Assembly: GCA_029248675.1 (NCBI GenBank)
Contig: JAQWIX010000044.1
Location: 1 to 44,753, forward strand
Source of the DNA: Pseudomonadales bacterium
GTDB lineage: Bacteria > Pseudomonadota > Gammaproteobacteria > Pseudomonadales > Azotimanducaceae
Direction of reading: 5' to 3'
DNA: 44,753 bases
Under the pieces are notes generated by a model. The model saw nothing but the letters and a program-made list of their open reading frames with translations. It was not told the origin of the DNA and did not search any database. Both the position numbers and the translations under genes were made by a program. This document shows positions 19,459 through 24,050 of this stretch, one piece after another; positions within the stretch are counted from its first letter, which is position 1, and every line of letters starts with the position of its first letter.

Positions 19459-20409
19459 ATGAGTACAGCAAAGCTGGTCTCCATCCCCGATATGCCCGAC
19501 ATCGCCAACCGAGCGCTGTCCGAAGCCCAAGCCACCCTAGACTGGGTAGGTATGAGCAACGTCCATCAGCCGCTGAAAGTAAAAGACGGCGACCAAATGA
19601 AGGACGTCCACGCGAACATCCAAGTCTATGTAAACCTAGCCGATCCTTTGGCTAAGGGCATTCATATGTCTCGCCTTTACTTACTGCTGGACGAACACGC
19701 GGCCACACGACCGTTGACGGCTTCCGGGCTGAAAATGCTGTTAGGTTCCGTGCTTGAATCCCATCACGACCTCAGCACCAATGCCTTTGTGCAGTTTGAG
19801 TTTGACCACTTTGTGCGCCGACGGGCTTTGCTCAGCGATAACGTTGGCTGGGCCTCTTATCCCGTCATGGTCAAAGGTACCTTGATTAAGGGTGAAGTGG
19901 CGTTGGAGCTGTCGGTGGAAGTGCAGTATTCATCGACCTGCCCGTGCTCTGCAGCGCTTGCACGCCAGCTGATACAAGAGCAGTTCAAGAAAGATTTCGG
20001 TGCTGCTGGTGACGTGAGCATTAGCGATGTAAACGATTGGCTTGGTACTGAGGAAGGCATCTTAGCCACACCTCACAGTCAGCGTAGCACCGCCAAAATC
20101 TTGGTGCGGCTAGATACCAGTCAAGACGACTTGCCCATTACCCAACTCATCAATCATGTTGAGGATGCACTCAAGACCCCTGTTCAAAGCGCAGTAAAGC
20201 GAGAGGACGAGCAGGAGTTTGCCCGACTAAACGGTAAAAACTTGATGTTCATCGAAGACGCGGGCCGTCGCTTGAAGACCACGCTTAGCGACGACGAGCG
20301 GTGGCGTGACTTCTGGGTGCGAATAGAGCATCACGAAAGTTTGCACGCACACGATGCAGTAGGCGTTTTCACCAAGGGTGAAGAAGACGGTTATCTGCCA
20401 ATCCCCTAG
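19459..20409 (+). CDS. folE2: GTP cyclohydrolase FolE2 (type IB)
   Basis: 316 aa; EVQYSSTCPCSAALARQLI, MLGSVLESHHDLSTNAFVQ, RIEHHESLHAHDAVG. Confidence 0.93.
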   Translation: MSTAKLVSIPDMPDIANRALSEAQATLDWVGMSNVHQPLKVKDGDQMKDVHANIQVYVNLADPLAKGIHMSRLYLLLDEHAATRPLTASGLKMLLGSVLESHHDLSTNAFVQFEFDHFVRRRALLSDNVGWASYPVMVKGTLIKGEVALELSVEVQYSSTCPCSAALARQLIQEQFKKDFGAAGDVSISDVNDWLGTEEGILATPHSQRSTAKILVRLDTSQDDLPITQLINHVEDALKTPVQSAVKREDEQEFARLNGKNLMFIEDAGRRLKTTLSDDERWRDFWVRIEHHESLHAHDAVGVFTKGEEDGYLPIP

Positions 20410-20566: not shown

Positions 20567-21499
20567 CTAGTGCTTAGTCTGGGTTGGCAAGGATTCCAGA
20601 TCCAGACCATCAGCCAGAGCGACAGCCCGCAGGGCGTCTTCGAAAATAGAACGGGCGTGAGCGGTCATATCAGCCAGTTGGCCGTGCAAGGCGCTCTGAG
20701 TCGGATCGTCTTCCACACACTGCATGCAGTATTTCTCGAATCCATTGATGTCGATTAACAGCTTAGCAATATGATTAGGGCATTCGCAGTTGAGGCTGGG
20801 CATCATATTAGCGATGTGAGACAGCTGCTCCGGATCAAAAGCACTAACACCTACTTGGTAGCTGGTGCTGTAGGCCTTGGGGGCTTCCACATTCAGGTAA
20901 GAGCGAATCTTTTCTGAGGTAGCCGGAGCCTTGATGGCCTGGATGCCATGGGAGCTTAGAAGCTGCTCAATTCGGCGTGGTGCAAAGGCGTAAATCACGA
21001 CGATGCGCTGATAGTGTTTGCTTCGCAGAACCACCAGTTGGTCGACGACGGTGTCGGGCAGCGTATCGCTCTCAACCACCAAGGTGCCGTGCTTAGAGTT
21101 CTTTACGTGCTGAGGCTGGTCCAGCCACTTTTCCAGCGTCTGGGAGAAGCCGCTGAACGACGGGGTTAGCGATGGCTCTGCGCGCTCAAACAGCGTGGTC
21201 AAGTTCAGGCCCACCACGTCGGCACCGCCGTCATGGTTGGCTGCGCGACTTTGCTCGTGACGAACGGCCAGAATGTCTAGCTCGTCGTTGCTCAGTCGAG
21301 CCAACTCCGCCAACGAATGACCTTCGCCCATGAGACGTTTGACCAGCAGCAACCTTTGGACGTGCTCATTAGTATAAAAGCGGCGGCCAGACTCGCTGCG
21401 GTTAGGGGTGACAATTGAGTGCCGACTTTCCCACTTTCGAAGGGTATGCGTGGGAACTCCGGTCAGGTTGGCGACAGCGCCGATAGTCAGTCTTTCCAT
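20567..21499 (-). CDS. MerR-family transcriptional regulator, LitR/CarH-like layout without an evident B12 motif
   Basis: MERLTIGAVANLTGVPTHTLRKWESRHSIVTPNRSESGRRFYTNEHVQRLLLVKRLM; 310 aa; Cys-rich C-terminus CECPNHIAKLLIDINGFEKYCMQC. Confidence 0.85.
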   Translation of the reverse strand: MERLTIGAVANLTGVPTHTLRKWESRHSIVTPNRSESGRRFYTNEHVQRLLLVKRLMGEGHSLAELARLSNDELDILAVRHEQSRAANHDGGADVVGLNLTTLFERAEPSLTPSFSGFSQTLEKWLDQPQHVKNSKHGTLVVESDTLPDTVVDQLVVLRSKHYQRIVVIYAFAPRRIEQLLSSHGIQAIKAPATSEKIRSYLNVEAPKAYSTSYQVGVSAFDPEQLSHIANMMPSLNCECPNHIAKLLIDINGFEKYCMQCVEDDPTQSALHGQLADMTAHARSIFEDALRAVALADGLDLESLPTQTKH

Positions 21500-21540: not shown

Positions 21541-21864
21541 CTAAGCTGCAGGTATCCAAGCGTTGCACCAGCCCGGGCCGGCGACCAATTTTCCTGGAAT
21601 TGCCGTGCAGGCACCGAGTCCGGCTGCGCCGGCGGTATACAGAGCGCAGTTACTGCAAAACTGCGTGGCGCCTGCCGCTCCCGCTCGCTTTGGGTACTTG
21701 GCGACGTCTACCGTAGCTGCATCTTTCTTGTAGCCGAGAGCCAAGGCGATAGGGTCCGTTTCCAAAAGTTCCGGCGGTCCCGCCGCGATGGTCGTGGTGG
21801 GAATTAGCGAGGCCGCCCATAAGGCGATACCGGCGTTTAAGAATTCACGTCTAGATTGCGTCAC
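21541..21864 (-). CDS. High-potential iron-sulfur protein (HiPIP), Tat-exported
   Basis: SRREFLNAG Tat-like signal; FCSNCALY ... GACTAIPGKLVAGPGWCNAWIPAA four-Cys HiPIP pattern. GTG at 21864 has AAAGGAG upstream; track start 21900 is a TTG. Confidence 0.88.
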   Translation of the reverse strand: MTQSRREFLNAGIALWAASLIPTTTIAAGPPELLETDPIALALGYKKDAATVDVAKYPKRAGAAGATQFCSNCALYTAGAAGLGACTAIPGKLVAGPGWCNAWIPAA

Positions 21865-22031
21865 AGCTGATTGCTCCTTTGAGTTAACCTGTCCAATCAA
21901 AATCTACCTTGATCGGCCTGATGTCAACATTTATTTGGACAATTGCCGTGAATTTCAACGATCACGCGAAATTGACCATGTTTTGGTTAACTTAATGCTT
22001 GACGAAACATGATCCAGTGAAGGAAGGGTAA

Positions 22032-22733
22032 ATGAATGTAATGATTCTTGGTGCGGCAGGTGATATTGGCAGGCACCTGTTGGAGCAGTATTTGGCACAC
22101 CCTGAGGTCCAGTGCATCTACGCCACACACCACAGGGAAGTAAGCAGTATTTGTCCATCTGTGCATTGGTTAACCGTGGACATGGCGGATCCCAGTGCTA
22201 TCGCCGAGTTGGCTGCGGCCATTGATCAACCGATTCACCGCTGGATTTGCTGTACTGGCTTGTTGGCAGGCTCTCACGGTCAGCCAGAGAAGACCTTTCG
22301 ACGATTGGCCTCACAGAAACTCCAGCACGATTACGCGGTAAACGCTGTAGGACCGGTTACGCTATTTGCGCAAATGGCCAATCACCTTCGTTCCGATGAA
22401 TTGCGCGCGGTTTTTTTGTCTGCCCAAGTGGGCAGCATAGAAGACAACCGGCTGGGCGGTTGGTACGGCTATCGAATGTCTAAGGCCGCCTTGAATATGG
22501 GTGTACGCTGTCTGGCCATTGAATGCAGCCGCTGGCGTAGCCAGCCCACCATTGTTGCGGTTCATCCCGGCACGACGGCATCGAATCTGTCCAAGCCGTT
22601 TACGAAAACCCGAACCGCTCCCGTGCAGAGCCCCAAGCAGTGCGCGACTCGGCTCTACCAACTGATAGAGACACTAGAACCCCAGCAGAACGGGCAGTTT
22701 CTAAAGCTCAGTGGTGAGATCCTGCCTTGGTAG
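22032..22733 (+). CDS. Short-chain dehydrogenase/reductase (SDR) family protein
   Basis: MILGAAGDIGRHLLEQYL; YGYRMSKAALNMGVRCLAIE (YxxxK); VHPGTTASNLSKPF. Confidence 0.9.
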   Translation: MNVMILGAAGDIGRHLLEQYLAHPEVQCIYATHHREVSSICPSVHWLTVDMADPSAIAELAAAIDQPIHRWICCTGLLAGSHGQPEKTFRRLASQKLQHDYAVNAVGPVTLFAQMANHLRSDELRAVFLSAQVGSIEDNRLGGWYGYRMSKAALNMGVRCLAIECSRWRSQPTIVAVHPGTTASNLSKPFTKTRTAPVQSPKQCATRLYQLIETLEPQQNGQFLKLSGEILPW

Positions 22734-22745
22734 CTTGGTGGTGGA

Positions 22746-23351
22746 TTATTTAAGCGCTGATGAGTCGCAGATGGGTATCAGGATTTCGTTTTTGCGCAGA
22801 AACCAAGGCATAAACGGAGGATCGTACCTAGCCCAGCGGGGGGTGCCGCAGGCACTGAGGTTCAGGGCGTTTAAACCGCTTAACAACAACTGCTCGTGGG
22901 CTTGATAGTTTTGCTGGCTCCAACCGCCGCTGTATTTGATGGCAGCAACCACCAATTCGGGCTGGGCAGTAATTTGAACATCGTCGTCGGACGGTGCTGG
23001 TACGCTTTGTTGGTTGAATTCACTGGGCACGACAAAAGAGATAAACCACCGGCCGGGCTGAGATTGATCCGACGAGGCGGTGGCCTGCTGCAGTACCGGA
23101 GCGGTCATGGCAATTTTCTCTGACCCATTGTTCTCGCCGCTGATGTAGTCAAATAGCGGACGAAAACCTTGGCTGCCCGCCTTGCTGAATTTGCCCTCAA
23201 TTTCCACGGTGGCGAGCAGATGTGGCTCATAGCGCCTAATTTCGATCTCACCCTCAGTTCGGAGCACATCGTAGGCGAGAGTTTCTAAGGCACTTGCTGT
23301 TGTGGAAAGGCAGCAAAGCAGCACTAAAGACGTAATGACCGCGTGTCGCAT
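22746..23351 (-). CDS. SOUL family heme-binding-like secreted protein
   Basis: Signal peptide; YDVLRTEGEIEIRRYEPHLLATVEIEG; GSEKIAMTAPVLQQ. Confidence 0.88.
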   Translation of the reverse strand: MRHAVITSLVLLCCLSTTASALETLAYDVLRTEGEIEIRRYEPHLLATVEIEGKFSKAGSQGFRPLFDYISGENNGSEKIAMTAPVLQQATASSDQSQPGRWFISFVVPSEFNQQSVPAPSDDDVQITAQPELVVAAIKYSGGWSQQNYQAHEQLLLSGLNALNLSACGTPRWARYDPPFMPWFLRKNEILIPICDSSALK

Positions 23352-23486: not shown

Positions 23487-24050
23487 TTAACGGCTCTGGC
23501 TGTGGTACTCGGGGTTGGGCACCATGGCTGTGCCGCTAGCCACCCGGTTGGTCATGTTGAAGAACGCGGCAACGCTGGTGATATCCCAGATATCTCGATC
23601 CGAGAAGCCTTGGTCCCGCAGCCCTTGGCGGTGGCTTTCCTCTACGGATGCGCTGGAACGAGTGAGCAAGGCGGCAAAGTCCAGCATGGCCCGCTGCCGA
23701 TCATCCAGTTCGGCTGCTTTGTAGTTCATCACTAACTGTTCACCCAACAATGGATTTCCCGAAAGTTCTCGAACTGCTGCGCCGTGAGCGGTGAGGCAGT
23801 AAAAGCAGCTGTTGATAGACGAAACCACCACGGCAATCATTTCCCGCTCCAGTTTGCTCAAGCCGCTGTTGCCCAGCATGAGGTCGTTATAGAACGCGGT
23901 GAAGGTATTGAGTTTGTCGATATCAAAGGCATAGGCCTGAAGCACATTGGGTATCATCCCAAGTTTGTCCTGGCAGATATCGAAGTATTTCTGGGTGGCC
24001 TCTGGCAAGGGATCTGCCATGGGTAAATCTAGGGCGGTTGGGGTTTTCAT
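23487..24050 (-). CDS. Carboxymuconolactone decarboxylase / peroxidase-related (AhpD-like) protein
   Basis: LSKLEREMIAVVVSSINSCFYCLTAHGAAVREL, CxxC...H of the CMD fold. Confidence 0.87.
   Translation of the reverse strand: MKTPTALDLPMADPLPEATQKYFDICQDKLGMIPNVLQAYAFDIDKLNTFTAFYNDLMLGNSGLSKLEREMIAVVVSSINSCFYCLTAHGAAVRELSGNPLLGEQLVMNYKAAELDDRQRAMLDFAALLTRSSASVEESHRQGLRDQGFSDRDIWDITSVAAFFNMTNRVASGTAMVPNPEYHSQSR

Follow-up and report, generated by a model that had tools for sequence, protein, structure and literature searches.

An invariant Cys3-His set in the C-terminal domain of a class III LitR-like MerR regulator from a Pseudomonadales bacterium

The window, a 44,753-nucleotide stretch of DNA, encodes a MerR-family regulator of 310 amino acids (P0001; 20567..21499, minus strand) with an invariant set of three cysteines and one histidine in its C-terminal domain. 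Our best overall explanation, to which we give a probability of roughly 0.5, makes the protein a repressor of the class III LitR type that carries a metal cofactor at the Cys3-His set and is released by light or photo-oxidative stress. We infer each of the repression, the metal binding, the Fe-S identity of the cofactor and the light or redox signal. The regulator adds a new and divergent member to a group that is already known but little understood.

The class III LitR-like open reading frame is supported by a MerR_1 match (E=7.4e-19) and by orthologs within the same genus, and its coordinates agree with the original prediction. So does the MerR HTH assigned there: Pfam MerR_1 (E=7e-19) scored 68 bits against a cut-off of 21.6. 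The winged HTH occupies residues 1-75 (21275..21499, minus), with the Pfam match at 5-70 and AlphaFold pLDDT values of 79-90 over residues 1-70. It is followed at about residues 95-205 (20885..21217, minus) by a receiver-like or flavodoxin-like alpha/beta domain lacking DxHxxG, delineated by secondary structure, Foldseek and a motif scan, and then by a proposed helical cofactor-site domain at residues 221-300 (20600..20839, minus), delineated by alignments and conservation ranking. Pfam returned MerR HTH models only, with no B12-binding or B12_binding_2 match even at E≤1, and the motif scan found no DxHxxG in the 310-residue protein; a LitR-related regulator without B12 motifs, as first proposed, is thus borne out. 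NCBIfam CarH matched over the HTH only (38 bits; cut-off 400), and the PADLOC mad1 match, also confined to the HTH, was taken as a MerR HTH. No Pfam or NCBIfam model covered the C-terminal Cys domain, a PDB profile search with that domain gave no credible match, and relatives of the regulator were not found in viral contigs.

All four cysteines of the regulator (238, 240, 258 and 261) fall within the segment CECPNHIAKLLIDINGFEKYCMQC, originally described as a CxCxxH...CxxC arrangement with which the protein ends. Nine positions are invariant in 57 cluster-bearing homologs: C238, E239, C240, P241, F254, Y257, C261, H272 and E287. H243 is replaced by Gln in two of the 57, and position 258 is C, S or T. 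As C258 varies, C238/C240/C261/H272 make the better site (codons 238-272; 20684..20788, minus; assigned from homolog conservation), with H243 as a secondary candidate. The conservation check suggested with the original arrangement therefore upheld C238, C240 and C261 and dismissed C258, while H272, located 11 residues past the segment, belongs to the core. The segment is C-terminal as stated but lies inside the 80-residue helical domain and not at the very end. Removal of redundancy at 70% reduced the 57 homologs to 37, all of which keep C238, C240, C261 and H272; the 57 had been selected by CECP, so that the invariance of 238-241 is partly circular. This circularity does not apply to a whole-family profile search of 369 genomes of the class, in which the motif was not used for selection, and all 20 homologs from that search (L053-L072) carry the four residues. 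Among the 310 positions, C261, C240 and C238 rank second to fourth in conservation and H272 seventh, level with residues of the HTH. The consensus reads F..L..C238-E-C240-P-x-H243-x10-F254-E-x-Y257-x3-C261-x10-H272-x14-E287. Orthologs are present in most of 36 same-genus genomes, and some match was obtained in 51 of 58 genomes searched, many of these to the HTH only. From this pattern it is likely that the Cys/His residues make up a binding site for a metal or a cluster; that the cofactor is specifically an Fe-S cluster is a tentative assignment to which we give odds just short of even.

The second regulator found in many same-genus genomes is a paralog in which the HTH and the remainder of the sequence are retained. 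C238 is lost in every paralog and H272 in all but L032, and C240 and H243 are partly lost. In a maximum-likelihood tree, 17 paralogs lie on one side of a single branch with 100/100 support and a long stem, and loss of the site is confined to this one clade. Clade members include L082, L084-L101 and a gene on contig C84 of the window genome (L002). The Cys/His set is therefore either retained or lost almost as a whole, the pattern predicted by a common binding site or a bound cofactor. Such behavior would be unusual for a thiol redox switch, in which the cysteines form a disulfide without a stable cofactor, and the invariant His and Glu accompanying the cysteines also argue against it. The CxC pair and the distant Cys could form disulfides, and a peroxidase-related protein and a HiPIP encoded nearby point to redox stress; on balance we regard a thiol switch as very improbable.

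We examined AlphaFold models of the regulator and of an HTCC2080 relative. Both were built on 13-14 sequences and their confidence is modest, with mean pLDDT values of 63 and 72, respectively. The domain order is the same in the two models, namely the HTH, a short linker of about 20 residues, the alpha/beta domain and then the Cys-bearing helices. CarH chains ranked first in Foldseek, yet the overall TM scores were just 0.18-0.28; the alpha/beta part of the HTCC2080 model fitted receiver and CpaE pseudo-receiver domains better (target-normalized TMt 0.64-0.77). The LitR/CarH layout attributed to the protein thus holds in a loose sense, but there is no room for a four-helix bundle before the alpha/beta domain, and extra helices lie C-terminal to it. 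Both models put C238/C240 close to the beginning of a single long helix of about 20-25 residues, C261 close to its end, and H272 in the helix that follows. If this predicted helix is correct, the four ligands could come together in one site only through a kink or with the participation of a second subunit. In MerR itself, the Hg(II) site is built from two chains. The specific proposal that a Cys3-His Fe-S cluster, possibly intersubunit, would act as the primary light or singlet-oxygen sensor of a class III LitR-type MerR repressor is in our estimate unlikely.

Full-length matches in annotated plasmid and megaplasmid records were restricted to regulators of Caballeronia, Burkholderia and Methylomagnum, which show 26-28% identity over 95-98% of the query; the Caballeronia, B. 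anthina and B. arboris proteins match over 96-98%, the Cys/His site included, at E values of 1e-25 to 1e-27. The C-terminal signature is common to all such relatives where the sequence was read. In the tree, cluster-bearing sequences, with the paralogs nested inside, part from other MerR types, and the regulator falls on the same side as its Burkholderia/Caballeronia relatives, at a base with weak support (56/58); nearest stand-ins represented the B. multivorans reference LitR. The B. anthina gene is surrounded by genes for GTP cyclohydrolase I, a sigma-70 factor, an SDR, DUF3429, an FAD oxidoreductase, DUF2878 and a photolyase, and the Caballeronia gene by folE, an SDR, a sigma factor, ferrochelatase and photoactive yellow protein. 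The photoactive yellow protein gene (L046 810-1187) lies a few kb from the Caballeronia homolog, past IS21 genes. These surroundings match the litR/litS gene cluster of B. multivorans, whose LitR is described as belonging to class III. By genus, gene cluster and full-length similarity to the stand-ins for B. multivorans LitR, the regulator is apparently class III LitR-like. Sequence comparison indicates that the Cys module is an old feature shared by the whole non-B12 lineage, including the Burkholderia LitR-type regulators, and the proposal that B12 sensing gave way to a Cys cluster in this very protein is consequently unsupported.

The class III LitR of Burkholderia multivorans was reported by Sumi et al. 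(2018), as cited in PMC9758184 and PMC6739363. According to these papers, class III LitR occurs mainly in Burkholderia and has a C-terminus unlike any known functional domain (PMC9758184), and it depends on a chromophore that is not coenzyme B12 (PMC6739363). The cysteines described here may already have been noted in the 2018 paper. Absolute conservation of the set would be equally well explained by a structural Zn site that holds together a C-terminal dimerization or tetramerization domain, the signal entering elsewhere, namely through the alpha/beta domain, a protein partner (as with class II LitR and short LOV proteins) or another chromophore. Entry elsewhere has a precedent in class II PmlR2, for which the switch is a separate LOV protein rather than a cofactor of its own (PMC9758184), and the alpha/beta domain has a confident fold in the HTCC2080 model. 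Against it, light alters the absorption of recombinant class III LitR according to PMC9758184, implying a chromophore on the protein, and the site disappeared as a whole from a paralog clade that retained the domain. We judge a purely structural Zn site somewhat unlikely and prefer a cofactor that takes part in the release of repression.

The regulator is the second gene of an operon headed by a HiPIP gene (21541..21864, minus; Pfam HIPIP, E=6e-20). As originally noted, this gene is upstream on the same strand. Its end is 41 nt from the regulator start; its probable start, by comparison with orthologs that begin MTQSRR, is the GTG at 21864. The Tat-type signal (SRREFL) indicates that the HiPIP probably works in the periplasm. 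Six orthologous loci (L014-L019) have no HiPIP between the regulator and the SDR, in a gap too short for one, and none was detectable beside most distant homologs. With its Tat-type signal and its dispensability in synteny, the HiPIP is a likelier regulated target than sensing partner, and it is not the likely signal. A role as cluster donor or partner is disfavored on the same grounds.

The constant neighbors at the window locus are FolE2, the SDR, a SOUL protein and a peroxidase-related protein, all assigned by domain matches and synteny. The GTP cyclohydrolase FolE2 gene (19459..20409, plus) is convergent and occurs in most orthologous loci; the divergent PRK09009-like short-chain dehydrogenase (SDR) gene (22032..22733, plus) is conserved beside the regulator, an adjacency that recurs in the distant locus L062. 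Farther on are the genes for the SOUL heme-binding family protein (22746..23351, minus; Pfam SOUL, E=2e-45) and the peroxidase-related, carboxymuconolactone decarboxylase-family protein (23487..24050, minus). The SOUL protein, together with the ferrochelatase near the Caballeronia homolog, would fit a tetrapyrrole at the Cys/His set, that is, heme, or cobalamin held by an unusual Cys/His ligand, in a heme/porphyrin sensor of light or redox. The site also contains a CP dipeptide, which resembles the heme regulatory motif. Three invariant cysteines plus a histidine exceed what heme needs as ligands, and both a B12 domain match and DxHxxG are absent; we consider a tetrapyrrole quite improbable and keep to the metal cofactor.

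The gene neighborhoods are indicative of light/UV and photo-oxidative stress. Genes for photolyases or photolyase-related proteins adjoin the cluster-bearing regulators at L022, L025, L026, L040-L045, L055, L067, L070 and L116 or are no more than a few kb away, as called by Pfam DPRP, FAD_binding_7 or DNA_photolyase or by similarity to the B. anthina photolyase. DPRP-type photolyase-related genes adjoin or are close to cluster-bearing regulators at L022 2383-3870, L025 2-1303 and L055 2822-3943. The same similarity comparison found no photolyase gene, and no other light-type neighbor, near the site-less paralogs; the Pfam check covered one paralog locus. No photolyase gene is among the window neighbors examined. 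The window genome has four photolyase/cryptochrome genes (contigs C126, C161, C118 and C158; L108-L112).

The Cys domain also occurs in stand-alone proteins of about 100 amino acids (CxCPxQV...C...VH...E) without an HTH, two of which were checked and matched no Pfam or NCBIfam model. They are encoded at L118 1477-1803, L119 1486-1824, L120 1477-1803, L121 1471-1809, L122 1453-1830 (minus), L123 1477-1806 and L124 240-527. The L121 gene is followed by genes for a pyrimidine-dimer glycosylase-DUF1722 protein and a 2-thiouracil desulfurase-family protein, and a pyrimidine-dimer glycosylase gene is near the stand-alone gene of L119.

A candidate operator, TGTCCAAATAAATGTTGACA (TGTC-N12-GACA; 21922..21941, minus), overlaps the -35-like TTGACA of the HiPIP-regulator operon. 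Most HiPIP-type loci have a TGTC-N12-GACA/T palindrome overlapping a -35-like element, TTGAC(A), and the exact TGTC-N12-GACA was observed six times in 21 loci, where 0.065 would be expected, these loci being related to one another. The site at the HiPIP promoter is the sole exact match in its own genome and one-mismatch matches are not above control, which gives no basis for claiming a wider regulon. The operator is absent upstream of all four photolyase/cryptochrome genes of that genome, and neither TGTACA-type nor TGTC-N12-GACA sites occur upstream of the regulators from Burkholderia, Caballeronia and Luminiphilus. No sigma-70 consensus pair emerged from a simple promoter scan of the region. 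Before the SDR gene, a block conserved by eye among close orthologs, TTGACCATGTTTTGGTTAA (21972..21990, plus), is a weak candidate for a second operator or a -35 element.

An operator overlapping the -35 element fits a repressor. In the mechanism we propose, the regulator would act as an autorepressor: bound to the inverted repeat at the -35 region of the promoter shared by the HiPIP gene and its own, it would keep the operon off, and the divergent SDR gene would probably be kept off as well. The C-terminal helical domain would hold a metal cofactor, most likely an Fe-S cluster, via C238, C240, C261 and H272. Light or photo-oxidative stress would alter or remove the cofactor and weaken DNA binding, upon which the photoprotection and redox genes would be expressed.

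Placing an invariant Cys3-His set on the C-terminal domain of the class III LitR lineage makes the chromophore question testable and offers a concrete handle on how the B12-independent LitR branch senses light or redox stress. The paralog clade is a natural site-less control, and the stand-alone version of about 100 amino acids is convenient for biochemistry. An Fe-S cluster in the site, if confirmed, would add a new chemistry to the sensing of light or photo-oxidative stress, and an Fe-S photoreceptor or photo-oxidation sensor would parallel the B12 photoreceptor CarH. Zn in the site would also be informative, placing the chromophore elsewhere.

Like class I LitR/CarH, the AdoB12 photoreceptor represented by T. 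thermophilus CarH (PDB 5c8d), the regulator has an HTH and then an alpha/beta domain. In CarH a four-helix bundle sits between the HTH and the B12 domain, for which the regulator has no room; its domain order thus differs, with an extra C-terminal helical Cys domain and no DxHxxG. Membership in the CarH class is rejected, as both the B12 domain and the DxHxxG motif are absent. The class II LitR proteins PplR1-3 and PmlR1/2 of Pseudomonas are similar in being B12-independent, in their repressor logic and in an SDR/folE/photolyase regulon (PMC9758184). In class II LitR the HTH is followed by a B12_binding_2-like helical domain, and the protein acts via short LOV proteins, whereas the regulator shows no such domain and no LOV gene is among the neighbors examined at the locus. 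Class II is likewise rejected, given the lack of a B12_binding_2 match and the mere 20 or so residues from the HTH to the alpha/beta domain. SoxR shares the MerR fold and clustered cysteines, with similarity to the regulator at the HTH level only; it is a protein of about 150 amino acids with a 2Fe-2S cluster near the end of its dimerization helix. Compared with class III LitR, the regulator has 26-28% identity to the stand-ins, its operon holds a HiPIP, and its locus has folE2 and the SDR but no ECF sigma or photolyase gene among the neighbors examined. Both have a MerR HTH without a recognizable B12 domain, and the Burkholderia/Caballeronia class III-type relatives share with the regulator the CECPxH...FExYxxxC...H module as well as similarity over the full length.
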